Positions 4,468-62,070 of a stretch of DNA of 64,000 nucleotides are shown one piece after another. Under the pieces are notes generated by a model. That model saw only the letters and a program-made list of their open reading frames with translations. It did no database searches and was not told where the DNA came from. The stretch covers positions 7,539,513 through 7,603,512 of the forward strand of contig CAXIPT010000002.1 of the NCBI GenBank assembly GCA_964030475.1, read 5' to 3'. A program made the translations under genes and the position numbers. The stretch's first letter is position 1. Each line of letters opens with the position of its first letter. Source of the DNA: Tethya wilhelma. Taxonomy: Eukaryota; Porifera; Demospongiae; Tethyida; Tethyidae.

Positions 4468-5604
4468 ACACACACACACTCACACTTTAGGTTGAAGAAG
4501 TTCAATCAGTTGCCATGTCTTCTCCTCCTGTTGTTGCCCCTCCCCCTCCCCCCGCTGCTCTCCCTCTGGGTTGGACAGAGCACAAGACTGGTGATGGTCA
4601 CATCTACTACCACAACAGCACCACAGGGGAGTCCTCCTGGACACGCCCCCAGCCACCACCAACTGTACCAGAGGAAACAAAGAACACAGGGAACAGCTTA
4701 CTTGAGGTACATGTTAATCTTGTGGGCCTGAGGTTAAAGTCTGCCAGCCAACAATAGAGTTCAGCCAGAGTCACTAAATCATTCTACATTTAAAATCATT
4801 GGCTGTTTTACTGCACAGCTTTGTAGTGATAAGTGCCCAAATTAGAAGTTTTCCAGACTTTTTATGATGGGTGGAGGAATAAGGAGGAGAGAATGTTCAA
4901 GAATGATGGCAGAGGCAATCAGATTGTTGCATTTAGTCACAGTCATTTCTATGTGCTGTTTCTTGATGCAAACCTTAGTCCTTTAATATTAAGAAGCTCT
5001 GATTTCAAACCCATTGCTGTCATATTCGGCTGCTCATAATCTATGAGTATCTCTATGTATATGAAAATGTCAGAATTCAGCTTCCCTTAGATTCACTTTG
5101 GAGACTTGAACATCTGATAGTTGTGATATGTAAGTAGTGGGCAGTGTGCTAGGTTGTGGAGGATTCAGTTTCTTTACAAGGATACCTGACATGCTCTACT
5201 GTAAACAAATTGTCTTCTAAAGCCAGTACAGTGTTGTGTCCATCTGCAGCTTGAAATCCTTGTATCTACAGCTTATAAATGTGCATGTATTAATTCTGTG
5301 TACACACTCATTTTTGATTTGAGCCATTAAATACATGCATAGTGTGTAGCGATAGTGTTTAGTGGGTTATAGTAATGATGATGTAATGTTCAATCTGTCG
5401 TTACAGAAAGTGGCACCTCGAGGTTGGACCAAGGAAATCAATCCCATTACCAGTACCCCTGTCTTCACAAACTGTAGAACAGGAGAGAGATGGGCTATAG
5501 GCAGTGATGGAGCTGGAAACACGTACTTCTACAACATGTCAAACCCCAAGCTCACAGTAGGAGAGTTACCAGAAGTTACTGATGTACGTTTACGTCTGTG
5601 TGTG

Positions 5605-8600: not shown

Positions 8601-10061
8601 TAAAGGTTGCAGTAGTCATTTTGTGTTTTCTGTTGTTGTGTTATTGTTTTTGTCTGTTTGTTTGTTTCATTGCAACTCCTGAGCTGGCATCCATTCTAAA
8701 GACTTATCGTAAAGATTGAGATGTATAGTAGATGTACTGTATGCATGTGCAGTAATCAAGAATCTAGATGTCCACAAAGTGTACATACATTTATCTTCTG
8801 AGGTCATGATTTGCAGTTCTAAGTGGCCATTACTGTACAAGAGCTGTGCTTGGTTGTGCGGTCTGTCCCTAGTCACCTTCCAGTCTAATAGTGCATCTAC
8901 ATGTTTGTTTAGTCTCTGTTGTTTAGTATTGACTAGTTGAGTGACATGTACTCATATTCCTTAGAGCTGATTTCTAGGACAGTATCTGCCAAAACGTCTG
9001 ATAATTTGATTAGCTGTATTGTGTGCCAAGGGTTTAGAGTTTATTGCCTTTGGTGCTTTCATTATAATGGTATTGAATTACTCAACAACCAGGTTGTTAG
9101 TACATTTGATAATCGCCACCTTTGGTGTATTATATATAGTACTGAAGATTGTTTAGGTTTGTGTGTACTGTCAAACAATGCCTTGTGTATGGCAAAGAAT
9201 CTACCTGTAGATGTGAACCTTTATAAATGACAGTTTTCATTATTCAAAGTTTATTTCTGTCTTACCAGATCCTGTGTTTGGGTGTGAGCTCAGTGCGCTA
9301 TGTAGCCGGGAGAACGGTACTGTTCCTCAGTTCTTTATGAGGTTCATTGAGCACATTGAGAAGAATGGTCTTGATGTGGTGGGCATATATCGACTGTCTG
9401 GAAATGCGGCTTCCATCACTAAACTACGATATCTTATAGAGCAAGGTACATGTTGTAGAGCTGCAAATTATATCATTTCTTGCTGTAGCTGCCAATATCC
9501 CAGGAAACTGTGATCGGTGATAATTTCCTGATGTACTTTCACTGATCCAAGCTTCATGGTATTGTTTGCTTCAGCAATGAACAATTGTCAATATAAACCT
9601 TACATAGGAATTTACTTGTTGAAAATGTACTAATGAACATTATTTTCATAGTATGCATACCTATTATAAAAACTTTTGATGTTTTACTCATAAACTTATG
9701 TTACAGATGATTTCAACTTGGATGACTCTCAGTGGGCTGACATCAACATCATCACTGGCTGCCTCAAGCTGTACCTAAGGGAACTCCCTGATCCTCTCAT
9801 ACCCTTCAAGCAGTTCAGGAGCTTCATTGATGCTGCCAGTAAGTCTTGCTAGTGCTAGTGTCAATCTGTGTGCATCAAATGTACATCAATCCTCTTCTTC
9901 CAGGAGCGCCTACACAACCACAAAGAGTCCAGTTGATATCTGCACGAGTGAATGAGCTCCCTACACCAAATTATTGTACACTTAAAGCACTTACACAGCA
10001 CCTAAGAAAGTATGTCTTATTAGTGTCTGTATTTTCTCTCTCACTTGTACACAGTTTCTCA

Positions 10062-13933: not shown

Positions 13934-14648
13934 ACTCAGGTAGGTTAAGGAATGGTTACAAAAAGTGGCCAAAATTAGTATTCATATTATGCGAAAAGTG
14001 AATAACTTGCAATTGTGTTTTATTAATTGTACTGAAATGAAAACACGATATATGATGCTAATCTAAACATTTCAAGAAAATTTGCGTGATAGCCATAGTC
14101 ACATGACCTCTAATTTCTGCTGATTGAGCAAATTTTGAAAGTACGTCTAAAACTGTACGAAATTGACAGCTGCATCATTTGGGACAAATTGTATCTTAAA
14201 AAGCTCAAAAATTGTAACAACTCCACATTTTCATAATGAAAATTTTTTGCTTCGTTAAGAAGTTATTAGCCACAAAACACCAATTTCTATTTAATGCACA
14301 CCCATTTCGAGACTTTTAAATGCTATAACTTAAACACAAAGCGAAAATCCCTAAATATGAAAATGTGAAGATGTACATTATGTTGACCTAATTTAGTGAT
14401 GGAAGTATTGAAACTGAAAATCACTTCTTTGTTAGGGTAAAATGCATACATTCATGTGCACTTTTTGTTTGCCGATTCAGCAGAAATGAAAAGTCATGTG
14501 ACTATCATTATGGAATCAGTTTGTTTAAAGTATTATACTTTGGGACATTTCTTGTTTCTATGGATATAGTATCTATAGTAACAAAGTTATGGTCTTCTCG
14601 CATAATTTTTCAGTTAATTAGAAATACCTTTCCTTAACCTACCTGAGT
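13934..14648. mobile_element. Long imperfect inverted-repeat (foldback) element, about 715 bp
   Basis: The left end ACTCAGGTAGGTTAAGGAA is mirrored at the right end. Inversion continues inward: ATTATGCGAAAAG matches an inverted copy near the right end, and AGTCACATGAC at about 14096 pairs with an inverted copy near 14496. No open reading frame is seen. No target duplication could be assigned. Confidence 0.75.
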
Positions 14649-15187
14649 TATGGGGGTAGAGCTGAGTCAACTCCTATAGGCAGAGCTTGAATGAGAAAAA
14701 TTAATGTAAATACCTGTGACACTGGAAGTCAGAGTCAGTCAGTTAATTGGCAGTCAGAGTCATTGTTGAACGATTTGCTAATGATGTCCCAGTTATAAAA
14801 TTAGTAAAAATTATTCTACTAAAACACTAAATTTTGGCTGCTATATAATTGTTCAGTTCAATATTAATTATTGTGCACTGATAATCTATTGTGCATGCTC
14901 GAAGGAGACAATTCTCCATTACTTCAGTATGCAGATCAATTGCATTGGTACTTGGAATTTCAATTCAATAATAATTATGTTAGTTTACCACATACCTTGT
15001 CTACATGTGTATTACATGCAACATTGATCAGACAATATTGTATTTCAGTACAAAAGTAAGTAATCAAAGCACTATACTAACAACACGTACAATCAGAACA
15101 ACTCTTCTATAGTTCAAATTCATGTGTGCCAAACTAGCTAAAATAAAACAAACTATAACGTTGGCAAAAGGCACTTATTAATAGTCA
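14649..15187. other. Convergent intergenic spacer
   Basis: Lies between the methyltransferase-like gene (with the foldback element) and the 3' end of CYP51. AT-rich with no gene or strong motif seen. It should include the 3' UTR of CYP51 on the minus strand. Confidence 0.4.
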
Positions 15188-18100
15188 TCAAGCTGTTTTT
15201 CTACGTCTGTAGTTTATTACTGGTTTGGTAGGAGTATGAATCATAGTGGAGTAGTTGACAGGAGGGAAGTAGCCGTCAGCTAAATCAAACTCATACTTCC
15301 TCAATAGAACAGACCAAATAGTTTTGATCTGGATATAGGCAAAGTTTTCACCCACACAGCGATGACGACCTACACCACGAGAGAGGATGCACCATTGCAT
15401 AATTATTGTGAAAATACGAAAACTAATGTGTAGTGCACAAGCATAGATTCCCATGCACTGATTGTCCTTCTAGCCTTGATCTTTCCCAGGCTCCCTCCAC
15501 ACGAATATTATCGTGACTGCACAATCAGTTATGTATATACTGACCTGCACCAAACGGTACATATGCAAATTTTTCTGATTCAAGCTGTTCTTTTTTCAAA
15601 TATCTGCAAAAAAATACAGGTATGCATGCTAATAACAAAACTAACAATAACAGCTATAGTGCATTAATTTAATTATAAGTTGTACCTATCAGGATTATAC
15701 TGTTCAGGATTGGGCCAAATGTCTGCCAATCTTTGATTGACTGTTGGAGAGACACAGACTTGATGTCCTGGTGGAATAGTGTAGCCAGAAATTTTCTGTA
15801 TACATAAAGGGTGCTACATTAACACAACAATGTATGTGTACTACCATTTCTTCTTGTACAATAATAGTACATGTAGCAATCAATACAACAACAAACTGAA
15901 CAAAGGGTAACTACAAAGATCCACCTGTGGTGTTTTCACCATTCTCATCATGGTCATGATCGGAGGGCGGAGTCTAAGAGTCTCCTGAAGACACCGGTCA
16001 AGAAAGGATAGCTCTATTACCTACTGAGTGCATTTCATGATGTAAAGGTAACCAGTAGGATTGCAATACTATCTTACACTAAACCTGGTCATATTCCAGT
16101 GGGGGTAGATCTTTGCCACAGACTTTTAGCTGCTCTTCATAGGCCTGGTCCTGATGAGGAAACAATAAGTGAATTAAGTTATACTTCACATGGTGACTAC
16201 AATGGTGGCATATATAATTATTGTTCACCTGAAGGTTCTTGTTTTTTGCCAGATAAAAGCCAAGCCAGGCACTAGTTGTTGATGAGGTGTGTTGACCAGC
16301 CAGCAAGAATCCAATCAGCATTCCAATTATCTCATCATCGGTTAGAGGGCGGCCATCTCTACTCAAAATACAGCAACAGTGAAGGTCCATCACCGCAATA
16401 GGAATTGCTCGTATGTAAAGGGATAATAAAGTTATTGGAAGCACTTACTTGTACGTGCTATGAAGTAAGTTGTCCAGCATGTCATCCTCATGGTCTCCCA
16501 GTTGGCTTTCTCGTCGCTTCTTAATAACCTCAGCAAAAATTCTGTTCATCTCTAGTCTTGCATTGTCTCGTTTCCTGTATTAGTAACATATGACATGAAT
16601 GAAACTCTACTAGTGGTAATTAAAGCAGCCATGAACAACAGTAACACATTTGACCTTGTCATCTGATCACATACATCTTCATTATGAGCCCATAGGCTTG
16701 CTAACTCCAATGATGTGTGCACATACTCACATCACACCAGATAAGCTTGTGATTGGGGCAAGCCTGAGCGAGCCCCATTGGAACGGTAAAACATTGAGGC
16801 AACTGTAACGGCGTTGACCAAACCGGAAATAGCAATCATGCTCAAATTACGCGAAAAATTAAAAGAAAATTAAACATCCTGGCCTCAGATTTATTTACGG
16901 TATTTCTATTTACTCGAGCGCACGCAAAATCGAAGAAAGTCCTTCAAGCATATGCTTCAAGTTAGTTGTTGCTTTAGTACTGCCACTCACAGTCAGCTCA
17001 GTCTGACAGTACTTGGTACTTCCACTCACAGGTCAGCTCAGCCTGGCAGTACTGCCACTCAGTCTCACAGCCTGACAGTAATGCCACTCACAGTCAGCTA
17101 AGCCTAGCTTGTTTCTTCACTCCTTTCCAGGCGAATGGGCAGCCAGCCTGCTTGTGGTCTTGAGTTATACTTTTAACATATTTTAATAGCTAGAATCATT
17201 TCAATTTTTCCTATACCAAGAGTACTGAGATTATAATCACGCTCTTATCTACTTTGTAATAGCATAGTCCTGTGAATGAAGATCCTTCGCTCAGGCTCAC
17301 CCAACGATGTTTCCATCTGACTAGTTAGATTTTAATTACATATTTCCCACCTACCAATTAACTCACTACAAACAATGATGTGTAATCACCTAAATGATGG
17401 TAGTGGAAGCCAGGTTGGCAAGAGCCAAGCAAGGTGAGAGAATCCTCCATCGAGATCAGAATATAGTTTTGCAACATATTCATCTAGTCTTTCCCTGATT
17501 TCCTTGCCTGTACGTAAGATTATATTGTGGAATAATCTTTAATTTGTGTCAAGTGTATTAAAATATTGATTTATTTCACCTATCCCTATGTAATTGTTAT
17601 CACAATGTATGGACGTACCATGAAGACAGCGACTAGCTGTCAATATAATCAGTTCCGATAGTGCAAGGAAGAGATCTAGTGGAATCATAATAATATAGTT
17701 TAGATTAGGGTATTGGTATTTCATCAGTATACAGATAAGCGATACCTTTCTTCCCAGAATCTCCCCACCTCTCAAAATAGTCAATGGTCTCTCTCTCTAT
17801 GAGAGGTACATATCGCCGAAAGTGAGCCACAGACAATCCTGTCTTTAGCATTTTCTTTTGCTCTAAAAATACCTAGTATGTATTGGGCACCAATAATGTG
17901 TGAATCAACCACTCTTGTATGCTTGCAAACATATATACCAGTAGTTGAATTGTATGATTATTAACCAATACAACTTACACTGTTTGGTACATCGTATGCC
18001 ACACCTTTCCCAAAGACTGGTGTCACTAGTTTAGAGTAGACTTCTTCAGCATTACAGTCCTGGTTCTTGGAATTGAAGAAGAGTGCTGATGCATCAGACC

Positions 18101-19044
18101 CAATCAGATATGTGAACGTCTTGCCCACCATTGTGAAGCTGAATACATTCCCATACTAGAATACAATTACAGTAAATTGAATTGCAATCAGAGACAAATT
18201 CTGCTGCAATATTGAGACATGATTCTTAAATTTATTGATCTAGCATGAAATGAACTAGCAAAGCACAAGTGTGCTGTGGGGTAAGCTCTTTGATCTTTAT
18301 AGGGAGTGATTGAGGTTGATGGCATTGCATGATAATCATGTAGCTATAGGATACATATAGTGAATGTCCTCACAACAGCTTGACCCCAAAGCCACATGAA
18401 TGTATGGAGATATTTGGACCAATTTACAAATAAAGTGTCAAGTGAGACCACATGGATGAATTAGAAGGCTACTGTTCACATGTGCAAATGGCATGCCATA
18501 CTAAGGAAGAATAGATTTCGAATTTCTTATTACTAAAAAAATCTTTTAACTTGGAATTAGTATGACAGCATTAATTTTATATCTTCCTGATCCTTTCTTG
18601 CTCTTTTAATATTATTATGGTATAGAGATGATCAGTTAATCTATCAGTTAGCCATCTATGACGGGTTGTTAATCACTCTTAATTTTTAGTAACACACCTA
18701 CCTTACTCCGAGCTTTTATGAGAAAATCAATAGGATTTTGGCCAAACTCTATTGCATGTCCAAGGAATGGAATAGCAGAGCTGATGTGTGGGGGGAGGCA
18801 CTATATTAAAGAAAAGAGAGAATTTTTTTGAAAATTATCTGGTAATAATATAAATTATTAGCTAATGAGGTATAAATGGTGTGACTATAAATGAACATTC
18901 AAAGCTGACCTCTCCTTCCTTCATTTTATAGCCATTGTGGCCTAGTTTTCGGTAAACGTAGAGAAGCCCTACCACGACCAGCACTGCCAGGGAGGTTGAA
19001 TTGAACACTGCAACGCCTTCCAGCACACTTGAAGTTAATCCCAT
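15188..19044 (-). CDS. CYP51: Lanosterol/sterol 14-alpha demethylase (cytochrome P450 family 51)
   Basis: Removes the 14-alpha methyl group of lanosterol by three oxidations; it acts at the ER with a P450 reductase. Exons in coding order: 18910-19044, 18702-18800, 17979-18155, 17746-17872, 17619-17675, 17390-17507, 16449-16574, 16229-16358, 16085-16150, 15925-16020, 15686-15795, 15545-15603, 15188-15369. Phases agree through all 13 exons and give about 493 aa, close to the animal enzyme (about 500). A single N-terminal membrane anchor lies at about residues 15-33. The B'-region has GVAYDVP. The I-helix signature AGQHTSS is at about 300-306, the K-helix E-x-x-R (ETLR) at about 358-361, and the heme loop VPFGAGRHRC with the ligand cysteine at about 438. 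Carboxyl-end segments such as [16 protein letters not shown] are typical of CYP51. The frame stays open upstream of the chosen ATG, but this start gives the usual anchor. It is divergent to lanosterol synthase. Confidence 0.96.
16755..17302. mobile_element. TIR element in CYP51 intron 6 (GGGGCAAGCCTGAGCGA family)
   Basis: The left end GGGGCAAGCCTGAGCGAG and right end TCGCTCAGGCTCACCC are inverted copies about 550 bp apart. They lie in the 815 bp intron between CYP51 exons 6 and 7. The same ends bound an element in an intron of lanosterol synthase. No coding region is seen. Confidence 0.7.
16977..17107 (+). repeat. Degenerate minisatellite, about four units of 29-40 bp
   Basis: The core TGCCACTCACAGTCAGCT recurs about four times with variation, inside the TIR element in CYP51 intron 6. 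Confidence 0.75.
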
Positions 19045-19332
19045 CTCTAGTTCAGATGATCGAGTACTTGGGCTCGTAGAAGCGTGGAACCAACTCTGGT
19101 GTCTCCTAGAAGCATAGATCAGAACATAAATCATGCGTTTTGGGAATAGTGGGTGGGGCTGAGTGTCAGCTGATGTCGACCTGGTGAGATTGGGCACCGC
19201 GCCCACGTGTTTGTCTTGGTCAGCCCATTGATATTAAAATGTAGGCTACATTTTCTATATGGTCAGCCGATCCAGACCTGTAAAGTAGCGGTTCGGTGAA
19301 AAGAATCCTTCTCATGCCTTTTGGTTGCATGC
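19045..19332. promoter_or_regulatory. Shared divergent promoter of CYP51 and lanosterol synthase
   Basis: Only 288 bp separate the two start codons, so both promoters and both 5' UTRs lie here unless upstream non-coding exons exist. Visible motifs: a CACCC/Sp1-type box (GGGTGGGGC, 19151-19159), an inverted CCAAT box (ATTGG, 19189-19193), and a palindromic E-box CACGTG (19204-19209). NF-Y, Sp1 and E-box/SRE sites are typical of SREBP-controlled sterol genes in other animals. I see no perfect classic SRE. Regulation is therefore inference. Confidence 0.65.
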
Positions 19333-22300
19333 ATGATGAGTGGTACTATCAGTACTGTCAAAGAAGCCACTGATTTGACCAAATGGAGGTTGCACTGTGA
19401 GAGAGGCAGACAAACATGGGAATATGATGAAGTGAATCGCTGTGGCAGGGCATCTAATTTCATCGAAAAGCATGCATTAGGATTGAAAACAGTAAGTCAC
19501 CTACTGAAAAAGTTCACATACAGGTTTCAGCTATCCCACAAGATGGACATCATAAATATTTGCTCATCTTGCACTATAGGATTGTGATGCTCCTCAACTC
19601 CCTCAAGCTTCTACTCCGTTGGAATCTGCTAGAAATGGAGTGATATTTTATTCTAAACTGCAAGCTGATGATGGCCACTGGACTGGTGACTATGGTGGCC
19701 CACTATTTTTGATGGCAGGTTAGTATACTATAACTGTTATATGCGTGATGTGGTCATATGACTGAAGCACTTCTAAACATAGCTACCCCATGTCATAACA
19801 CCCAAGAGACACTGCTGTGTGTGTGATGATCATATCCTTTACTAGTGTATTAACCTTTGTCAGTGTATTAAGGTTGTCAAGTCCTAGGAATTGCGTCACT
19901 ATTTATATGCGATGTTTTGTTACCAAAAACAAAATGTGTGACAAATACGAAATACATGTACGTACATGGAGCTAGTATCTGGACGTGTTACCCAGATCAC
20001 GCTACAAAAAAGTCACATAAAGGTCATAGAACGTCATAAGACATCACACATTTTGTTTTTAGTAACAAAGTAGTGCTTATAATATAGTGACACAGTTCCT
20101 TTAATAAGTGTGGATTAATCCAATCATGCACGAGCAATGAATACTTTGGAACTAGCATAGTCAGTGGCTTGAGTCTGATTGCCAAGTTATTTATTAGCGG
20201 ATATTTGCAAATTAAATATCATCCATTATTGACTATAATTAACTCCATTGTATACTAAAGCTTGATTTTTTTTTATCGAATATCAAATTCATTGTTCTGA
20301 AAAGACATGAATGCCATAATATTATGCTTGGTCATAGGTAATCTTGATATCTGTAAATCTTGATTAGAACTAATACCAAATGCAACTGTTATAAACTCTT
20401 TGTCATAATAATATTATTTTAGGTTTAGTGATAGTCTGTCATGTTACTGAAACTCCTCTTGGTAATCCTCAAAGAATTGAAATGATCCGCTACCTCAGGA
20501 ATGTACAAAGAGACGATGGAGGCTGGGGACTGTGAGTTTACTACTATGATCAGCTATGAGCATGTTGTACTGAATACAGTAGATTGGGAAAATTTGTTTG
20601 TTTAATTTTATTATTTTGACAAAAGTATAATTATAGAGATTGCCATTATTATGTTTTTAATTGAGTTGTTTTGAGTTATATATTAGCTTGGGTAATGACC
20701 AAAGCATTGGTTACAATATTATCATGTGCCCAATGTAGAAAGTAGAGCGGAGGTATTGTAGCATTAATCAAAGCAAGACTTCTACTGTGGCTATACTTAT
20801 TGCAATTGTCCATTTCTAGCATACATCTTGGGTTCACTCATGTACATTGCAGCTCAACACTCACTTTCCTTTCTTATTTCTTCCAATGTGGCACATATTT
20901 GTGCATACAATCATTGCATAGCAATTCCCATGCTCAACTATTTTTTACTATACTTGTGTACCCTTCTAGTCACACTGAAGGAAAATCGACCGTCTTTGGT
21001 ACTGCACTAAACTACGCCACCATGAGATTACTGGGAGTTGCCAAGGATGATCCTGATATCGTAAGAGCCAGGGCTTTGTTACACAGTCTTGGTGGTGCTG
21101 TAGGCATTCCATCTTGGGGCAAGTTTTGGCTGTCAGTGCTCAATGTGTACGATTGGAATGGAGTCAACTCATTACTTCCAGAGTTGTGGTCAGTTTGAAT
21201 AAGTATTAGTTATGGTCTAATGACTTTGTGCGTTAGTTTAAGGATCATTTTAATCGCAGGCTTCTTCCAAGATCACTTCCTATCCATCCATCTAACTGGT
21301 GGTGCCATTGCAGACAGGTGTGTTGTAGTGAATGGATCTTTTAAATCTTAAAATGCATCTTTATGTTCATTCCATTCAAGAATAATTCCTAACCTGTACT
21401 TATTAATAAACATACAATAATGCTATAGGTAAGATCTGTATGTTTAAGTGGCCATACCTATTATAGTGTGTATCACTTGTTTGATGCTAATTATAGCTGT
21501 TAAATTTGGATGAATGCTTTATCTTTTGAAGGTGTACCTTCCAATGGGCTACTGTTATGCTCACAGGATATCAGCCAAACCCTCAAAGGTCATTCTTGAA
21601 CTTAGAGAGGTATGGTATACAAGCCAGGACTGAACATCATACCCTTGAAACTAAATAATTTTATACTTTAATTTACAGGAGTTGTATGTTGAATCTTACT
21701 CTTCAATCAACTGGCCAAGGCAAAGGAACAATGTAGCTCAAGGAGACATCTATAATCCACACAGCCGGCTTCTAGATATTACACTAAGTAAGTTATGATC
21801 GATTAAGGGTAAAATTGCCTGCCAATCCTTTGTCAATCCCGTTAACTACAACTCACTTGTGTAGGTAAAATATAATTTTTTATTGTCAATTTGGTTAATG
21901 ACTTAATTCCCAGTTGCAGCACATCTAATGCTCTAATGCATACATGATAAATGGTTTGCATGTGTATTGTTTGCAGGTATTGCCAATCTCTATGAAAGGG
22001 TATGTAGCAGTGTTGTGCGATCCTGGGCTGCTGAAGAGTGTCTCATGCAGATCAAGGCTGATGACCAATTTACACACTGCATCAGTATTGGTCCAGTGAG
22101 TAGCCTGATAGCTATGTTTGTTGTGCCATTTCATGTTTCATTATAAACAGTATGCACTGTAGATATCCAAAGTGATTCAGATGCTAGTGAGATGGCATGC
22201 TGATGGACCAGACTCACCTGCCTTCAAGGAACATGTGAGCAGGATTCCTGACTACCTCTGGTAAGATCTAGATGTTTCAAGAAAGCCTTTCTGAGCTATA

Positions 22301-25300
22301 TACTATTTCTTTAAATTACTCTAATCACTGTGTTTATAGGATTGGACTAGATGGCATGAAGATGCAGGTAAAACAGTACATCCATTGTATTTTTACGTCA
22401 TCATTATAACAATTATTATAAATTATGCATTGAGATGTGGTATTACCATATATCCACATCTGTGATCCACAATAAACATTATAAGTTTGAACTTATTTCC
22501 AGGGAACAAATGGTTCTCAATTATGGGACAGTGCATTTGCAGCCCAGGCTTTCCTAGAGGTTGGTTTGAAAATTGTTGCTCGGCTGGTTAGCTTATAACC
22601 CTAGTCTATGATTATGTAGGCATCAGCATTCAAAGAGAGTGATTTCAACCGTACATTGAAATCTGTTCATGAATTCTTTAGAGTGACACAGGTATAACTT
22701 ATTAGAAGCTATAACGTATAAACATTGACATTCTTGTCTAAACTTGTGTTTATTTATTTTAGGTCCCTGACAACCCTCCAAACTATAAGAAGTTTTACAG
22801 GCAAATGAACAAGGTAATTTTCAATAATTCAGAGTCTAGCTAATTATCAATTTGTTTAGGACTGATCACCTTCAAAGTAAAGTTAATAATTATTTATGTT
22901 CAAATTTACCTTTATAATAATAACTTAATTGTTTTGTGAACCATACAGGGAGCCTTTCCATTCAGCACAGTAGATTGTGGGTGGATTGTTTCAGACTGCA
23001 CAGCAGAAGGTCTTAAATCTGTAATGCTACTACAGGAGAAATGCAAGTATGTAATTCTTAGAATCGTAAAGGATAGTAATATTAGAATTATATTTATAAG
23101 AATTTCTCACATACAGTTTTCTAGGGGAACATATCAATAAGGAACGACTGTATGATACAGTTGATGTGGTATGTTGATAATTTGGTTACCATGTACAGTG
23201 CACGTGGTTTTGCCTTTGCGCAGAAAATTATTTTCAGGTAGTTTCCATTCATTTATTAGTAGTTTGTTGTTTCACTGTCCAGCTACTTAGCATGCAGAAC
23301 AGCAATGGTGGGTATTCATCGTATGAGACCAAGAGGGCAGGGGGTGTAATGGAAATGCTGAACCCTGCTGAGGTGTTTGGGGATATCATGGTTGACTACA
23401 CCTACGTGGAGTGTACATCAGCTGTACTGCAAGCATTGAAGCACTTTACTGACAAATGTCCAGAATATAGACAAAAAGAGATTAGGTAAGCATTGTGTTA
23501 AGGCATGGGCATGCAAATTTCATACTGTTTACATTGATGATGTCATAACAGAGAGTGCTTACACAAAGGGTTACGATATATCCTGAGTATACAAAGACCA
23601 GATGGCTCATGGGAGGGGTAAGTGATAGTAGTATGTCATTGTAGCTTATGATAGTAAACTGGTTATGATGGTGAATATGCAGGAGTTGGGGTGTATGTTT
23701 TACGTATGGAACCTGGTTTGGTCTAGAAGCACTGGCATGTATGGGTAGAAGATACGATTATGGGTGAGTGTCAAAATTAACACTTTCTCTGTTCATAGTT
23801 TTATATTAATTGTTTCATAGTATGAGTGGTTTTTTCTCCGAGCCATGACATAATTGTATCCACACATAGCACTGCTGGATATGAGGTTAAGAAAGCTTGT
23901 GAGTTTCTCCTGTCCCGTCAAATGGCTGATGGAGGATGGGGTGAAGATTTTGCTGTAAGTTGCAAGTGTAGAGTATCAAGTCGTAGCAGGTCTATTGTGC
24001 ACCTTAACGTGTTTGTTTCTTTAATAGTCATGTGAGCAGAGAGTTTATGTACAAACTGAAGGCTCTGAGATAGTGAACACTTGTTGGGCTCTCCTGGGTC
24101 TCATGGCTGTCAGGTATATCTTAGTGATTGTGGTTGATTCCTCATTCCACTTAGGCCTATGTTTTTATTTTCTTTTTATAGTTGAAAATGACCATACCAT
24201 AATTATAGCACAAAATATTGCCTAGCAGGAATAAAATTTTGCAGATTAGCAAAAATTTCATGATTGGTGGATCTGGATTTTAACTTCTGAGTTAACTATT
24301 CCATTAGCAATAATATTATTAATGCTGTTGTTTCTATATTATGGCCAGGTACCCTGATCCAGATCCAATCATCAAAGGCATAAAAGTAAGTCGGAGAGTG
24401 CATGCATTCATTTATTGATAAAAATCCACTGTCCTCCCATATCAGGTCATCATGGATAGGCAACTTGGCAATGGTGATTGGAAGCAGGTATACAAAATTA
24501 AAACTAATACTAGGAAAATACATGACATTGATAGGGGCAAGCCTGAGCGACATCATGTATAATTTTTACAATATTTCATGTATCTTAAGCTACTGCATGG
24601 GTATCTTGTCAATTGCAGTTTGCACAAGTTGTCAACAGTCATACATGTAGGATCTAGCCTTGTAAACCAGGCCCTCCCCGCTATCCTTAGCACTTATTGC
24701 TAAGCGCAGAAGTGTAGGATCACTAGAGTTGTAGTCTTGCCACACTTGATCCGTCCATACTGATATTGGCACAAAGAACACGATATTTCAGGCTATGCAT
24801 GGTATCATTGCTATGATGACTCTATAGAACTGTGACCCATGTGTTTTCATGGGCAACCACTGATGTGGTGCGGGTACATATTAATCCCTCAGAGCTATGT
24901 AGAGTGTGTGAGTTTTCTGATCGATTTATCAGTGGTAGACTATATGCTGCTACTAATTTTTTGTGAACTGGCTGCCAAGCATCTTGCTATCAAACATAAC
25001 ACCATCAAAGTTAGCTAGGCTAAGCCATAGATTAGGTGGCTAAGTCTGTCCACTGATGCTCATTGGCAATGTTCATAGCGCTCCACTGAATGAAGCAAAC
25101 GTCTCTGCTATGTCTATATTCATATATCATCAGGTTGAGCATAAATGAAACTTACAAAATGCTGAGTAGCTAGCTAGCAGTACACTTCACTCTGTTAAGT
25201 GCTTGAAGTAGTCACATCAGCAAACACTCAATCAGTGCTGCCACATGGACGATCACATGCACATGGTCTAGAAGCTGAAGGTCAAAGTCTTTGATTATCG

Positions 25301-25576
25301 AGCATACGAAGACGACAAACCAAAAATACCAGCAGAGCCGACCTACTCACAAAATTAATGTGGGGCTCGCTCAGGCTCACCCCAATTAATTTATTAATGT
25401 ACAGTGAAGTTTGCACTTCTAGTAATTGTATGGTATGGCTGTTTTGTATTTTGCAGGAGGGTATTAAAGGAGTCTTCAACAAGACTTGTGCTATCACTTA
25501 CACCAGTTACAGAAATATATTTCCTATTTGGACACTTGGCAGATTTTCACACATTTATGGTGATATTGCTGTTTAG
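19333..25576 (+). CDS. LSS: Lanosterol synthase (2,3-oxidosqualene cyclase)
   Basis: Cyclises 2,3-oxidosqualene to lanosterol. Exons: 19333-19491, 19580-19718, 20423-20531, 20970-21188, 21260-21317, 21532-21609, 21679-21787, 21977-22095, 22163-22260, 22340-22367, 22503-22559, 22620-22691, 22763-22813, 22949-23046, 23117-23168, 23283-23485, 23552-23617, 23683-23763, 23870-23954, 24028-24113, 24349-24385, 24446-24487, 25457-25576. All 23 agree in phase and give about 721 aa (human 732). The catalytic acid is in VSDCTAE at D448. With a constant offset of 7 to human numbering, H225, Y496 and C526 match H232, Y503 and C533. Residues that separate lanosterol from cycloartenol synthases are of the lanosterol type: T374, C442 and V446. 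QW-type repeats are present ([27 protein letters not shown]). The start is the first of two adjacent ATGs; the N-terminal CERGRQTW segment fits animal enzymes. Divergent partner of CYP51. Confidence 0.97.
19884..20102. mobile_element. Inverted-repeat MITE in LSS intron 2
   Basis: The left half (AGGAATTGCGTCACTAT, then CAAAAACAAAATGTGTGA) is mirrored by the right half (TCACACATTTTGTTTTTA, then ATAGTGACACAGTTCCT). About 220 bp, non-coding. A related end (GTGACACGGTTCCTT) occurs near 41709. Confidence 0.7.
24534..25383. mobile_element. TIR element in LSS intron 22 (GGGGCAAGCCTGAGCGA family)
   Basis: GGGGCAAGCCTGAGCGA at 24534 and an inverted copy ending GCTCAGGCTCACCCC at 25383 bound about 850 bp of non-coding DNA, which makes up nearly all of the last LSS intron. 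It is the same family as the element in CYP51 intron 6. Related GGGGCGAGC motifs recur near 29583, 36862, 38194 and 38401. Confidence 0.7.
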
Positions 25577-26130
25577 CATGGATGGCCGTTTCGGATGCAT
25601 TACCATATATATATAATTATAATTATATCGTTTTACTTTTTTTTTATCCCATGCAATGTTAACTTATTGTTGCCAAGAGTATTGTTGTTACTATTATCTA
25701 TGCTTATTATGATCTTTGTGCATGTACCTAATTGTGAGAGGGGCTGCACCTGTCTAGAGCTGCTTCTTCTTCTTCTTCTTTCTTGTACCAGCAGTACTAC
25801 TGACTTCTAGAGACTCTAGTAGAGAGTACTACTTTTCTACTTGGCAAAAATTAAATGGGTTCTCAGGAAGCTGATACAGAACAGTTGTAATTCTGGATTA
25901 TCGATCCAACGGGTCAGGATTGGTCATGTGATCTGGGAGGAGGCAGGCAATATCCCCTAAGATTCCTAGGTGTGCAGATGAGTGGGTTTACTTCAGGTTT
26001 TTGGGCAGGTAGAGTATACATTGAATTCAGGTAGTGATTTCTGCATTAGGTTTAGCTCATATTGTTGCAACCAATGTTCAGATATAGCCATTATATCAAC
26101 ATTCTAATCGATTTTCGTAAGTACAGTGAG

Positions 26131-26250
26131 TAGGCCTGCTGTTAAGTTACTAGAGTAGCAAAGCGGAATAAAAACAGTTACAGTTGTATGGTGAGAACCT
26201 AAAAATATTTTTGTAAGAAAAAAAAAGAATATTGAGGTTCATTTAAATAA
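26131..26250 (+). repeat. Direct repeat, copy 1 of 2
   Basis: About 115 bp starting TAGGCCTGCTGTTAAGTTAC is repeated with about 85-90% similarity (by eye) at 26579-26693. Confidence 0.8.
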
Positions 26251-26578
26251 AATACAATATAGGCTCGTAAATTAGGCTTATATATAGTACCCTCCATTTT
26301 AGAAAAGGTTTGGTGTAAATGAATACTTTAGCACTAGTCTAATAGAGATATAATGAGCCTTTACCTCACTCAAACTTCACTTGCGCGGGCTCATCCCACC
26401 CATGCATGGCATATATCAAGTACGTAATTACATCAATATACACTGAAATCAAGGCATGATCTGTGTACACAATACAAAATTAACATAATTATAAAAAAGT
26501 TCATAATACACAACTCACAAGCCACGCCTCGTACCCAGCCTACCTACCCGATGCAGTTTAATTATTAAACTTGTGGAA

Positions 26579-46438: not shown

Positions 46439-49400
46439 ATGGTTACCGGAGGCCAAACGGATCAAGGAGTCAACACCAGCCCCCACTCCAACTTCAGTAT
46501 GCCTACAGGTTAGTCCATCAGTAACTTTTCCATATGAAACCGTACATTTGCCATGCCTATCAAATTATGATCTATGCTTAGCCTCGTTCCCAGGCCCCCC
46601 AAAAAAAGGGCCTGGTGTCTATTGACTGCGCATGCGCGTATTTGTAGCGAAAAAGAACAGTCCTACCTGGATTGGTTACTGCTGCTTTTTCACTCTTTTC
46701 TTCTTGAAATATATCAAGTAAGTGCCTGGAAAGAGACAAGCGTTCGTTTAGCTTTTCTGTGCCTATCGCTTCGAAAAAACCTATGACGTAATCCAGTCAA
46801 CAGAGTATACGGACAATTTTACGGTGAAATTTACAATGTACCCAGATTTTGGGTACAAACTGGTGCAGTCAATAGATACCAAGCCCTCTTTTGGGCCTGG
46901 GGACGAGGCTAGATCTATGCTATGCCTCAACCGAACATAAAATTTTTCTGTAAGGTTAATAAACATTGTCAGGTATGATATTACAACCAAGATCTACTCG
47001 ACCTCAGAGGCTCCTACATATCACTGGCAAGATGCAATCACTTTAATAGCTAGGTTGACTAAACTGGCTGAAGCCTCCTAATGTACAATCTGATGATTCA
47101 GTACTGATTGCACCATTTATACTTTAAAACTACACTTCCCCTATGGGCCTATCAGCTCCTTCTACTTTGCCAGCAAAATAAATGGATCAACTGACTTATC
47201 CGGCACCTCACCCAGGACCCCTAATCCCTGGCCCTAGCCCTAGTGCTAACCCTAGTCCTAGCCCTGTCCGAGGTGCCGAATAAGTCAGTTGACCCAAATA
47301 AATTTCACTGTTTGCACTGTGATCCAAAATTCACCCTACACTTACCCACCCACTTTTATTTTTTTCTAGGGAAAGCAGCAAAGAAAGAAAAGCAAGGTGA
47401 GCTACAGCTAGGGGAGCCATTGTGGCTTGTATATGAACACATACTAAAGTATAGTGGGACAATTTCAAACACGGGGGGGGGTATTTCCAACAAATAGTGC
47501 TTGGCTCTGAATGCTGTTCAGATTATAGACTTTCTATACAGTAGATCTGGTAATTTAGTTGATGAAGATGGTCATCTGAAACATCAAACTTATTGCCCTG
47601 CCTCATTTTGAAATTGCCTTACCTCATGGAAAATTGGCTAAAACCTTCTTGTGTGTTATGTGTTTGATGTATTGCAATTGTTTTCTGATATCAACCCAGA
47701 TAATACACCTGTTGTTCAGTCAGGCACCTACATTTTCCCTAATGGAGAGAAATATGGTTAGTGCTTTCAATTCTGTACTGTATAATGACAATAGTAGCAT
47801 ATCTGTGGTATGTGGTGTTTGATGTTGAGAATGCACTAGTGAATGATAGAATGTCATTACTAACAGTCAAACCTCCAATAACGGACCCTCTGAGAAGCAG
47901 ACTCTCTTGAGCGGACATAGTCTGTGTCCATTCCAGAGTACTTAGGCAACTTCCAAGAAGTGGACGCTTCTTGCTTCCAGACAGCGGACAATAGCTGTGC
48001 TTCCAACGTGTCTCAAGTAGTAACAAAATTGCCTCCAAATAAAGGACACTCAGGAAACCACACCCAAATAATTGTGCTTCATATGTAAAATCACGAGTAG
48101 ATATGTAAAACCATGCTTGCATATTTTTAAACCTTACAGTGGGTAATGATGAAAATTAACGTTAGGTAGCTAGCAACTATAGATCAATTGAGTAACATAG
48201 AGCATTTTTACTCCAATTTTTCTCTCAGCGTGCATATTCATGTCGACATGTCCCCTCAGGCATGGCATTTGATTCTCAGCAATATTATAACAAGTAGTAA
48301 AAATTTCAAAAAAAAATAAGTGGTGTAGGAATGGGCAGTGTGGTAAAAAGCATTGGAACAAGCCATGTCTCAATTTCAGCACATGACTACTTCATTTTTG
48401 ATTTATTTTTGATCCCTAATATGGATCCTTAGTGTCATAAATGCATGCAATGATCTGTACTACTATAGTACCATATCTTATTGTTGCATTCGTCCAAATT
48501 CCTACTAATCAGTTGGCTAAGCAGTGAAGTAAACCATAACAAGACAGGCAACTTAAACTGGACTGCATGCCGGCCAACAATGAGGTATAAAAAATGAAGT
48601 AGTCATGTGCCGAAATTGAGACATGCCTTGTTCCAATGCTTTTTACTGCACTGCCCATTCCTACACCACTTATTTTTTTGAAATTTTACTACTCGTTCAT
48701 TCACTTTTTCAACACTACAGTGTGGAGACTATCAGAGACTGGTAAGTCACTACAAAAAGCTTGAGTAGCAGCTACAATTTCATTATGCTGGATGAGGCTA
48801 ATGTACATGTGCATAATGCCACGTGGATAGATGACCTTTGAACTCTACCTAAGATGGCTGCATTGCAGTACATGAATTTATACACTAAGTTTTAAAGCTT
48901 TCTAGTTTTTGTTTAGGCCTTTTTGAGATTGAAATGAGTATCAAGGAATGTAGAACCCAAGAAAAGAACTTACTTTGTGCTGTTAAAGTTGGCTCAACAC
49001 ATTCTGGTTCTGCATGCAAGGCCTACAACTCACAAAAACTTTTCTCAGCACTCATAGTGAGCGCTAGTGGGAAGCCACCATAGTGCCATTTTTGTTCTTC
49101 TATCTTTTGATCCCAGTATACATGCAGGTCATATATATATATATATACATTACTTTTTGTCTTTGTGTAGAAGGGGAATATGTTAAGAACAACTCTAGAG
49201 TAATTGAAAGATGTGGAGAGGGAAGACATACCTTTGCAAGTGGAATTGTTTACACTGGAAAATGGGAAAAAGACCGAATGAATGGGAAAGGTACACTGGT
49301 ATCCAAAAAAGAAAAAAAAAAAGAGAGAGAACAATTTCTCTGTTAGATCTTATTAGATATACGATTTGCATGCCTTGTCTTGTCTGCATGCTGTCCAAAT

Positions 49401-54304: not shown

Positions 54305-57300
54305 CTACTCCATTGTGTTCATGCAAACCATGACCCCATACAAGTAGACACTTTCATGATTCCTTGTTGACCATTCCAACTGATCATTAGAGAACAGCTC
54401 ATCAATGACAGACTGGTCTTGGACAATAGTTTGCCTTGATATTGTGTAAGACTCAGGCTCAACCAAAAGCTTGAAGCACACCTTGACGTGACAAGCCACT
54501 CCAGTTGTAGAATCAGTATACCTGCACATAACATAATAATTATTAAGTTTTAGGTTGTAGTAGATACATGTAAGCATTTGTATGGAAATAATTGCTCATG
54601 TCATTGCATACACAAGAGATATCACAAGCAGGGAATAGAGTCAAACCTCTAAACAAAGGCCACTTTGGGAGCAGAGGCTTTTGGCCTTTATTCAGAGGTT
54701 GGCCTCTGGTGGGAGGTTCTTCGTTATAATACATATGAATTGTGTTAAAGTTGACTGTAATGTTATATATGTGCATCACCAGAACACTAAGATTGAATTG
54801 CTGAGCCATGATATACACTAATAGTTTCTTCAGTGTTTCATTTTTTTGAGAGAAGTCATTTTGGGGGTATATACCTAACCTAACTCAAAGACGTGCTTTA
54901 ATAGCTCCTTGAAGTGTCAAGTCAGGCTCAGAGGTCAGGCTTGACTACCAGTAAAACGTCCAGGGTGGTTGTTCCAAAGGTGAACAGAAGAGGTGGCTCT
55001 ACACTGGAAACACTTTGTGTGTACTCTTTCTTTCCACAGGAATAAACCCTATTAAGACAAGTTACAGCAACTAGTAGCCTAACAGGAAGGTCTATAACAC
55101 CAAAGTACAAAAGTTCAATTTTACTGCTCTATATATACATGATAAGAAAAGGAAATTTAAATAGGCCTAGTTTCCAGCTTGGTCGTTTTGAGAGACAGTT
55201 TTGCAAAGAATTGGGATCGTGCAGCTTGGCCACTGGTCAGAATCAAGAAGAGGCTGCTAGTTGTATGCCATTTTTAATTGGTGCCATAGCCTGTGGTAAT
55301 TACATGGAGGTTGGCCACTTGTGGGAGGGGCCATTATGAGAGGTTCCACTGTAATACTTACATAGAACAACATACCTCTGCCTCTTGGAGAATACCTCAT
55401 GGTGGGTGCAATATTTAATTGAAGGAGACATAAATATTTGGTTGGGATCAAAACCAGCTGGTTTCCATATATCATTGAAGTGTCCTTCAGGACGAGTTAC
55501 ACATCCATGTCCAGGTGTGGGAGCACCTGTCATGTAAAAAAAAAAGGGGGGAAAAAAAAGAAAAAGGCAAACACTAAATAAAAAAAAGACACAAGCACAA
55601 CTAAAGCAGGGTTCCCTCTAAAGCTTGTCAGAGCAGTGCTGCACCACTCTGGTCTGGTCATACTAAATTTATCTTGATGTGGTTAATTTTAATTAAAAGA
55701 ATGCATTAAAACCACAAGAAAGCTTTGATGTTTTCCCTCGCACCATGCACTCTGATCAACCATCTTGGTAGCCTCGTTCCCAGGCTCCCCCCTGCTTTTT
55801 TGCAAAAAAAGCTAAAGGGAGGGGAGGGGCCTGGGATCGAGGCTACCATCTTGGGGAGAACCCTGCCAGCATTAACAACATAATGTGAATACAAGTTACT
55901 TTACCTGGTAACAACAAGCGTCCAGAGTCAAGAATTGATCGAACATTCGCTACTGATGTTCCATGGTAGGCTTTGTGATATTTGAGGACAAATTCACCAT
56001 TTTGAGATTGTGGGAAAAATAACTGCAATCTATAGCAAATGTATCACACCATTTATAGGTCAATGTTATAGAATGTCATTGAAGATGTTGGTTAGCTTAC
56101 CTTAATCCAAACTTCATCCATCCAAGTGGAACAGAGCATTTAGTAAGAGGTTGTCCATGATATTTCACTGATGGTTCCCTTCTCAATGCTACACAACTGT
56201 CACAGTAGCACTTATCGTACATCCTGTCAAAATAAGATTCTATATAAAAGAGTAGGTATTAAAATAATTATGTTATTCATGTATGCATGTTTGGTAGTTA
56301 GGAATAGCCTTGTACCCAGGCTCTCTCCTTTGACCTTTCACCTTACTGTTAGTGTAAGGTCAAAGGAGAGAGCCTGGGTACGAGGCTAGATTAGGAAACT
56401 GGAAGATCTTTACAATGCCCTTTCATTATTCATGACATAATACACAAGTAAGCATGCAGCAGTAGTAGTACCAGGCATTCCCGGAATCGTATCATAATTC
56501 AGAGGGATTACCCTCAAACATGAATGCCACTCATCTCACCTGGAATATTCAATGACTTCAAAAATCTTTCACATAGTGCTTGGTAATCACAGTGTTTCGA
56601 ATGAGGTTGGCAATCACTGACCACAGACTCTGAAGGACTATCCGAACTCAACACTGCAATGGGAGGTGCAACCTGAACAGTCTTAGAACTACAGATATTC
56701 TTTGATGTTGAGGGTAGCAACGAATTGTCTTCAAGTGACTCCTTACGAGTTTCTTTCTTGTTGGTTGATTTCTTCTTCGATGTTATGCGAAGACTTTTAC
56801 TAAGAAGTTCATATGGAAGCTTGAGTGTATGTGAAGGCTTGGAGAGTTCACTGACATCGACATGGGTTGTAGGATGCAGCTCAATTTTGGAACATTTTCC
56901 ATAGATGTCGATAACTACATATCTCTGCCTTGGTAGCTTTAGAGGAGCTGGAAGTTCAATACATAGGTGAGCTTGATCAAAGAAGAAGTGAAGACTAGTT
57001 CTAGATGTCACTAATACTCCAATAATGCTCCCAACCCCTAATGATGCAATGTCAGTGATTTGAGGCATGCTCATTACTTCCTACGGAACAAATAGAAATA
57101 CACAAACAAAAAATACAGCAGAATAGAGGTTATCCACATGCAGGAGTTATGGGATTGTCCATAGCAATGGAAGCTGTCCACCACTTTGGAGCTTGATTGT
57201 ATAATATACCAAGTTTATAGAATGCTTAGTGGTCAGATATTCGGTTGTTCAAAGATACTTACACAAACGGACATACTAAACAGTACAGATGTAAGTACAC

Positions 57301-59169: not shown

Positions 59170-61335
59170 CTCAACTTTTACATTGGTGACCCTGACGCTG
59201 ACGATGTCAGACCCCAGGCCCGAAGTTGCAACAGACGCTCCACGCATTGCAGACCCTCCACTGGATCCACCTGCGACCACCCCAACCTCGCAGCCGTCAG
59301 TCTCAAACTCTGGCCAGCTGATCCAGAAGTCTGGTTTGCCTAAGTGGAAGCCCAATTCACCACAAGGAGCATAACGGCACAGAAGACGATGTTTGACTAC
59401 GTCGTCAGCTCCCTCAGCCCACAATTTGCTACGGAAGTTCGGGACCTACTCCTCAAACCTCCCACCGAGACCCCCTACACAACCCTCGAGGCTGAGCTAA
59501 TCAAGCGAACAGCAGCCTCCGAGCAGCGAAAACTCCAGCAACTCATCAGTGGAGAAGAGCTCGGGCCACTGGCCCAACTTCAAGTCACCTTTTCTACATT
59601 TTCGATTCACACACAAACACTAAAATTTCTTGTAGATACTGGATCAGAAGTCAGCGTTATTCCCCCTACCCCTGCTGATATCGAAGACGCTCACCAGATC
59701 CACGCACTCTCACTGCAGTCAACAACACATCTATCCGTACCTATGGTCAACGCTCTCTCACACTCAACCTTGGTATCACCCCTCTCCCTGAGAAAGTACA
59801 AGCTGTTCGTGACTTTCCTCAACCCCAATCTCAGCGCCAACTATGTCATTTCATCGGACTGGTCAACTTCTACCACAGATTTCTCCCTCACTGTGCTGAT
59901 CTAATGCAATCCCTTCGCTTACTCCTCAAAGGCAAGTCACAGTCTCTCACTTGGACTGAAGAAGCCACTGCTGCATTTAACTCCACTAAACAAGCTCTAG
60001 CCAACGCTTCTCTCTTGTCTTATCCTTCACCAGATGCTCCAACCTGCCTGATGACAGATGCTTCTGACACAGCCGTGGGAGCAGTTCTTCAACAAAACAT
60101 CAACGGCACATGGAAACCCATCTCCTTCTTCTCACGTAAGATGTCACCTGCAGAGACCCGGTACAGCACCTTCGACCGTGAACTCTTAGCTGTGTATCTC
60201 TCGATCAAACATTTCAGACATCTTCTTGAAGGACGAACATTCCATGTGTCAACAGATCACAAACCACTCACTCATGCTTTGAACTCTCGTTCAGATCGCC
60301 ACTCTCCGAGACAAGCTCGTCACCTTGACTTCATTTCCCAATTTACCTCTACCACTCGTCATGTGCATGGCATGGACAACATTGTTGCTGAAGCACTATC
60401 ACGAATCGAAACCAACGCCTTACTCACTGGTCAACCACCCAAAGTAGACTTCGCTGCAATTGCTGCTACTCAAGCTACTGACCCGCTCATTCGTTCACTG
60501 CAATCCTCACCAACATTTACCCTCGTATTGGAAGTTATACCACTCACTAATTCACCCCAGCCACTCTTAGATTGTGCACTTCCACTGGAACTCAACGACC
60601 CATAGTACCACTGTCTTGGCATCGCACTGTATTTGACTCGTTACATGGACTCTCACATCCAGGTATTCGTGCCACTCAAAAACTCATCACTTCTCGCTTT
60701 GTTTGGCCCGGATCAACGCTGATGTTCGTTGATGGACTCGGTCTTGTATACAGTGCCAACGTGCCAAGATCCAAAGACACTCTGTTGTTCCACTCTCTTC
60801 ATTTCCCATCCCCGACGCTCGCTTTGATATCATCCACATTGACATTGTTGGACCACTACCCTCTTCAAAAGGCTACACATACCTCCTCACCTGTGTTGAT
60901 CGTTACACCCACTGGCCTGAAGCCATTCCTCTCACTTGCATCACAGCTGAATCAGTCGCTTAAGCATTCATCAGTGGATGGATCTCCAGGTTTGGTGTTC
61001 CCTCAACCATCATCACAGACTGTGGTCGACAGTTCGAATCTGCTCTCTGGAACAATCTAATGTCTCTACCCAATTGGTACTAAGCGTTCTCATACAACAT
61101 CCTACCACCCACAATCCAACGGAATGGATGAACGTTTTCATCGCCACCTCAAGTCAGCATTGAAAGCTCAACCTCATCCTGAAGCTTGGATGGACAGTCT
61201 ACCTCTCATTCTCCTTGGTATTAGAACCACTCTTAAAACGGATCTCAATTCTACTGCTGCTACACAACTCTTCGTCTTCCTGGTGAATTCTTCATTCCCA
61301 GCACCCCTGATGCTACCCAAGACCCTTCTAACTTT
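59170..61335 (+). pseudogene. Degraded, internally deleted Ty3/gypsy retrotransposon
   Basis: Segments in the expected order, in changing frames. A possible primer-binding region (ATTGGTGACCCTGACG, about 59183-59198). A gag-like part around 59350-59565 ([21 protein letters not shown]). A protease motif [14 protein letters not shown] near 59625-59670. Then the reverse-transcriptase connection and RNase H (MTDASDTAVGAVLQQ, FDRELLAVYLSIKHFRHLL, STDHKPL) to about 60410. Then an integrase with a zinc-binding N-terminus (HGLSHPGIRATQKLI) and, in shifted frames, parts of the core. The reverse-transcriptase catalytic core is absent: protease sequence runs almost directly into the connection region near 59770. 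Several frameshifts and stops break the integrase. No long terminal repeats were found, and homology ends at the N at 61336. Confidence 0.88.
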
Positions 61336-62070
61336 NTTTGACAATACAACTTTAAATCTGTCAAGAGACATGCACATGTTACATAATATGTTGACAGGGC
61401 ATAGCATGTAATTAATGATTAATGTTAAACATGTCATTATCATCATAGGCCACAATACAATGAAGCATTCAAAGACAGAATATACTGTAGTTTGGAAATT
61501 TCTGACATTAATTCAAAAGTGTATGAGTGGCCGAACTTCTAGCATACATGATGTCGATCTTTACCAAATCGCTCAAAATGGCAACAATCATAGTAAGTCC
61601 GTAAAATTAAACAACTGCACAAATACTATGATGAAAAGAAATTAATGGAGTCTAAAGGCCAGTATAGACATTGAATTCGGGTTATAGTGTGAAGTGTAAT
61701 AATATTTTACTCATGAATAGTGCCACTGTGGTTTGACTTACTACAAGCTTGAAGTGTCATTATTCCAATAACTACATTTTTGTGGTTTAAAATATGATGC
61801 GTATATAATACAGTGACAACATATCATGATCTTATGAAAAAATTTTGTGTCTATGGAATTCCTTTACTTTATGAAAAGTACCAACAGATCTGGGTGAAAT
61901 TTTCGATCTCTAGCTATTATACAAAATAATACAAAAGGCCAATAAATTATTGCAATGGAACATTGGTCAAATAATGAAGAAATTTCAAAGGTAAAAATGA
62001 ATGCAAATTTACCTTAAACTCATCTGTTAAGGGTTCATTATTATCACGGTACATCAGAGGAGGTACCGCA

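Follow-up and report, generated by a model that had tools for sequence, protein, structure and literature searches.

Fungi, plants and bacteria offer well-known cases of neighbouring genes for consecutive steps of one pathway. Among animals, the counterparts found in the accessible parts of the literature are specialised cases, the nearest being the terpene cyclase-P450 gene clusters of octocorals (PMC11784711). In this study, a stretch of 64,000 nucleotides from the sponge Tethya wilhelma (C2:7539513-7603512, hereafter the window) was found to carry the gene for lanosterol synthase (LSS, oxidosqualene cyclase) head to head with the gene for sterol 14alpha-demethylase (CYP51). The reading favoured here, with a probability of roughly 0.62, is that the two form an old divergent pair that shares one promoter, with a linkage that dates from early animals. 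The octocoral clusters, as described in the available portion of that paper, resemble this locus in that an animal genome has a terpene-type cyclase gene next to P450 genes that serve the same pathway. They differ in serving specialised diterpenes, whereas the window concerns primary sterol metabolism, a triterpene cyclase, two divergent genes and a linkage seen at contig level across phyla.

CYP51 also adjoins LSS, again with a sponge community as host, in the steroid gene cluster TM7SF2-CYP51-LSS of sponge symbionts (PMC9531527). In the sections of that source at hand, however, the cluster is a bacterial same-strand operon with a C14-reductase, while the genes in the window are divergent, animal-type and filled with introns. 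The bidirectional promoters described for a sponge (PMC4773876) share with this locus the head-to-head arrangement within 1 kb, a rise in G+C and CpG and a G-box-like E-box; the available text names no pathway tie between the partners, which here are consecutive enzymes. A further likeness is to the conserved microsynteny of metazoans, in which, according to the text available, neighbours have been kept from sponges to bilaterians and this is ascribed to shared regulation (PMC5429095). The main text of that study does not mention CYP51, sterol or lanosterol, and the main text of a second study of metazoan microsynteny (PMC8851819) mentions none of LSS, CYP51, sterol and lanosterol. Titles and the opening parts of abstracts showed no earlier mention of an LSS-CYP51 pair in an animal, supplements and closed papers being beyond reach, and a published table of conserved gene pairs may already hold it. 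The pair is placed here among the conserved divergent gene pairs, and the surprise lies in its pathway logic.

The models of both genes were spliced by hand. CYP51 occupies positions 15188..19044 of the window on the minus strand, with 13 exons, 12 introns and a product of 493 aa, and LSS occupies positions 19333..25576 on the plus strand, with 23 exons, 22 introns and a product of 721 aa; both are identified from the splice model, the match to the human enzyme, Pfam and a tree. In these models all 34 introns, which range from 60 to 969 bp, are bounded by GT and AG, and each frame holds a single stop codon, at its end. The two ATG codons lie head to head with a spacer of 288 bp between them (19045..19332), within the 1 kb used to define a bidirectional pair, the distance being measured here on start codons. 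A reading of this DNA made earlier from its letters alone (hereafter the sequence-only reading) had described divergent neighbours with this spacing and with both genes intact down to their key residues; its coordinates and gap proved exact on the hand-built models, and the terminal stops, the introns and the diagnostic residues given below bear out the second claim. There are no N positions in 14500-26400 and 53 in the whole window. LSS and CYP51 stand as divergent neighbours, rich in introns and with intact frames. It should also be noted that a short sequence recurs at 16752-16777, in intron 6 of CYP51, and at 24529-24550 and 25361-25386, in the last intron of LSS, and is likely a dispersed repeat.

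The assembly from which the window was taken totals 124.6 Mb and has 204 contigs, and the contig that carries the pair, C2, extends beyond 18 Mb, judging from the matches placed on it. When the assembly was searched with CYP51, matches at 76-98% identity were confined to this locus. The remaining matches, at 26-38% identity, were taken as other P450s, and no second CYP51 was detected in this search. A search of the assembly with PF13243 returned no match and also missed the window's own LSS, which has short exons, so that this search is uninformative. Elsewhere in the assembly, P450 genes of 514-560 aa were seen in uninterrupted frames at C8:2425006, C8:2427221, C8:4739034, C8:4742572, C1:8085737, C3:9703860 and C3:9705811. 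Six of these seven stand in close pairs, and where they could be aligned they are 31-34% identical to CYP51; such arrays are intronless, in the same genome as a CYP51 with 12 introns.

Both proteins align with their human counterparts. Residues 10-719 of LSS align to residues 17-726 of human LSS (1w6k; 710 residues, 1092 bits), and residues 46-491 of CYP51 to residues 10-453 of human CYP51 (8yqo; 446 residues, 750 bits). In Pfam, LSS matches the N- and C-terminal SQHop_cyclase domains above cut-off (PF13249, 155 bits; PF13243, 180 bits), and CYP51 matches the p450 family (PF00067, 246 bits). Counted on the alignment to 1w6k, residues T374, C442, V446 and D448 of LSS correspond to human T381, C449, V453 and D455. 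D448, within the motif DCTAE, is taken to be a catalytic residue. In human numbering, lanosterol-type cyclases are marked by T381, C or Q449 and V453, where cycloartenol synthase has Y, H and I (PMC4967820). The window's LSS has T, C and V at these positions and would on this rule belong to the lanosterol type. It is predicted to make lanosterol, the first sterol, from 2,3-oxidosqualene.

In CYP51, the motif FGAGRHRC with Cys438, an ETLR at 358, substrate recognition site 1 (SRS1) at 118 and AGQHTSST around 301 were located. Cys438 is presumed to be the heme ligand and ETLR the ExxR motif, and the letters assigned to SRS1 and to SRS4 (AGQHTSST) are likewise our assumption. According to a published F/L rule for SRS1, a leucine marks the CYP51 of animals and fungi, which act on C4-dimethyl substrates (PMC10077716). 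The SRS1 of this protein carries the leucine, as those of animals and fungi do, and removal of the 14alpha-methyl group of lanosterol is its predicted activity.

The phylogenetic trees placed both proteins with those of other sponges. The sister of the window's LSS is that of Halichondria panicea, a demosponge of the order Suberitida (99 in the Shimodaira-Hasegawa-like approximate likelihood ratio test, SH-aLRT), and the two are joined by Amphimedon (100). The tree groups this LSS with animal sequences and apart from five bacterial LSS, with a warning of long branches on the bacterial rows. CYP51 falls into one group (SH-aLRT 99) with Halichondria, Amphimedon, Em0004g635a and two unnamed rows, in a tree that included no bacterial row. 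The prefix Em0004g is taken to denote Ephydatia muelleri. For LSS and CYP51 alike, the best identity is 78%, to Halichondria. On their sequences, both are animal-type enzymes, orthologous to those of other sponges.

An import of the pair from the operon of a sterol-making bacterial symbiont would account for CYP51 adjoining LSS, as it does in the TM7SF2-CYP51-LSS operons noted in 115 of 537 metagenome-assembled genomes (MAGs) of Ircinia symbionts in the available text of PMC9531527. The pair of the window is however divergent and holds 34 introns, the C14-reductase family was found on other contigs and not beside it, and the LSS groups with animal LSS rather than with the five bacterial ones. 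A scan of genome contigs with the LSS alignment returned 30 loci whose titles all name bacterial MAGs and in no case a sponge; 29 of them match LSS at 39-48% identity and one at 22%. A CYP51 match (E 1e-10) was found at none of these 30 loci, a thin sample with few full flanks (10 kb on both sides in 7/30, 3 kb in 15/30) and with none chosen as a sponge symbiont. Scans of the viral and genome contig collections with the single CYP51 sequence gave no relative, and scans of the viral collection with the CYP51 and LSS alignments found none. Such an import is considered extremely improbable, and a bacterial origin of the pair was rejected on the introns, the orientation and the LSS tree.

The spacer stands out in composition. 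Its G+C is 48% against 39% in the window, a value reached by 5% of 288-bp windows, and its CpG observed/expected ratio is 0.68 against 0.42. No AATAAA was found in it on either strand, and ATTAAA occurs once, at 19233. Among nine motifs tried on the spacer, the E-box (G-box) CACGTG was detected at 19204..19209 as a weak, single match, where 0.039 were expected; one copy was reached in 3.9% of 2000 simulated sequences. In promoters of Amphimedon, C, G and CpG go up, and bidirectional promoters, putative ones included, contain a G-box-like E-box four times more often (PMC4773876, as far as its text was available). By this analogy, the composition of the spacer is as expected for a sponge promoter, and the spacer is likely to serve as one bidirectional promoter for LSS and CYP51.

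To compare other animals, the LSS and CYP51 matches of one species were checked for contigs of identical length. The lists, matched by eye, held the best 120 of 493 CYP51 matches and the best 120 of 1384 and of 1329 LSS matches. Their rows are clusters at 90% identity, each named by one species, so the comparison covers those species after which a cluster is named in the CYP51 list as well as among the LSS lists, and no further cluster members. Denticeps, Lepisosteus and Anolis sagrei (CYP51) were dropped for want of a length and Amia because it was named differently in the CYP51 and LSS lists, and the entries for Anolis carolinensis possibly mix two assemblies. Biomphalaria glabrata was counted as different with lengths only 0.1% apart and a CYP51 row of three contigs, which may reflect one chromosome in two assemblies. 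Identical lengths can with little doubt be read as the same contig, and they speak of a shared contig and not of adjacency.

Among the matches listed, LSS and CYP51 lie on contigs of identical length in the sponges Halichondria panicea (6,511,711) and Amphimedon queenslandica (817,803), the brachiopod Lingula anatina (271,973), the nemertean Lineus longissimus (16,534,156) and the hemichordates Glandiceps talaboti (29,028,597) and Ptychodera flava (45,584,913). This amounts to six of eight non-vertebrates as against one of 13 vertebrates (Electrophorus), with a Fisher p of 0.003 that serves as a guide only, the species sharing history and the lists being the best 120. The CYP51 entry Em0004g635a is listed, and no LSS with an Em0004g-type name was seen among the LSS matches listed. 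Because the sizes are identical in sponges, brachiopod, nemertean and hemichordates and in only one of the 13 vertebrates, the linkage is likely to be ancestral to animals rather than a sponge speciality, and to have been mostly lost in vertebrates. The sequence-only reading had held these genes to be normally unlinked in animals; this suits the 12 of 13 vertebrates in which the lengths differ, and is not supported by the six of eight non-vertebrates in which they agree. The condition that it set, conservation of the pair in other sponges, held as far as a shared contig in Halichondria and Amphimedon, adjacency being beyond what lengths can show. Outside the animals, the Capsaspora locus tags CAOG_01478 and CAOG_05595 are given in PMC4967820, and their numbering suggests that LSS and CYP51 lie apart in this relative of animals.

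A number of points weigh against an old pair on a shared promoter. Adjacency and orientation are seen in this genome alone, the other species providing equal lengths only, and the agreement in the chromosome-scale contigs of Lineus, Ptychodera and Glandiceps may come from conserved animal chromosomes and not from a tight pair. Among the matches listed, the LSS and CYP51 scaffolds differ in length in Aplysia californica and Biomphalaria glabrata. Compact sponge genomes abound in head-to-head pairs, so that selection cannot be read from orientation alone. Within the 288-bp spacer, the CACGTG match does not survive correction for the nine motifs, and the motif scan detected neither the core of a sterol regulatory element (SRE) nor the GC-box GGGCGG. 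As a separate candidate, control of the pair by SREBP is unsupported, since the spacer lacks an SRE core.

It could be argued that an ancestral linkage on one chromosome existed without any pairing, and that only sponges, or only this sponge, went on to form the tight head-to-head pair. Three of the six shared contigs measure 16 to 46 Mb and are uninformative on distance, and the scaffolds of Aplysia differ, which would suit such a history. The contigs of Lingula (272 kb), Amphimedon (818 kb) and Halichondria (6.5 Mb) nevertheless demand a tighter linkage than that of a whole chromosome, and this course of events is judged unlikely, though deserving of attention. That a compact genome joined two sterol genes by chance, without shared control, would agree with the missing sterol-response motif, none in the spacer being convincing, and with the figures for Amphimedon in the available text of PMC4773876, where 45% of genes are arranged head to head and a divergent partner within 1 kb was counted for 11,379. 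Chance would however hardly explain shared contigs that bound the distance between LSS and CYP51 to 272 kb in Lingula and 818 kb in Amphimedon, or the identical lengths in six of eight non-vertebrates. With roughly 20,000 genes and 20 sterol genes assumed, a rough estimate gives an expectation of about 0.02 adjacent sterol pairs; consecutive catalytic steps in head-to-head partners are unlikely by chance, and mere coincidence is regarded as quite improbable.

Under the favoured reading of an old divergent pair with a shared promoter, the spacer would act as one promoter read in both directions, so that the enzymes that make and use lanosterol would be switched on together. Such joint production, and with it selection for retaining the pair, would have helped to keep LSS and CYP51 linked, and the linkage would date to early animals and then be mostly lost in vertebrates. 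If the two genes have been together since early animals, they lend themselves to asking whether co-regulation of a pathway's entry step can preserve gene order over several hundred million years, and also what becomes of sterol control once the pair breaks, as in vertebrates. A more far-reaching proposal would have LSS and CYP51 adjacent in the last common ancestor of animals as a head-to-head, co-regulated unit for sterol entry, which lineages as far apart as sponges, brachiopods and hemichordates would have retained; vertebrates would have lost it through their early genome duplications, with each copy keeping one partner, so that human CYP51A1 and LSS would be its two halves. This proposal is put forward tentatively, as possible but rather doubtful. 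In the human genome, CYP51A1 presumably adjoins AKAP9 and LSS lies in the neighbourhood of PCNT, and AKAP9 and PCNT are taken to be paralogues.

The other sterol genes searched for in the assembly are scattered. Squalene epoxidase was found on C7, partial matches to squalene synthase on C101 and C1, members of the C14-reductase family on C3 and C6 and a partial match to EBP on C5. The sterol C24-methyltransferase (SMT), which carries out a side-chain step, lies on C2 itself, about 10.2 Mb from the pair, as does the closest of 16 FA_hydroxylase matches, about 5.8 Mb away. A Pfam scan of 30 open reading frames (ORFs) of the window, a partial annotation in which nine had domains, revealed no sterol genes. 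The consecutive enzymes therefore form a pair and not a cluster, and a sterol biosynthetic cluster, defined as at least three pathway genes together, was rejected because the tested sterol genes lie elsewhere. The relevance to demosponges' unusual sterols that the sequence-only reading proposed is weakened, with a linkage that is not specific to sponges and a C24-methyltransferase about 10 Mb distant. Aside from this, the C14-reductase-family (ERG4_ERG24) gene on C3 (C3:6423036-6424280) is a single open frame of 425 aa (498 bits), unlike the matches on C6, which are split in two pieces, and may have arisen by retrocopying or been acquired.

Neither Rfam families nor tRNAs were detected when the window was scanned for them. 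To the left of the pair, plus-strand ORFs between 741 and 9837 contain SH3 (741-1784), WW (4494-4694) and RhoGAP (9706-9837) domains in that order, and these likely belong to one ARHGAP-type gene. To its right lie an ORF with MORN repeats at 49170-49340 on the plus strand and, on the minus strand at 56517-57080, an ORF with a weak Neuralized domain, below the Pfam cut-off. Further along, on the plus strand at 59344-61411, RT_RNaseH, integrase zinc-binding and weak integrase-core matches in several frames represent the remains of a retrotransposon.

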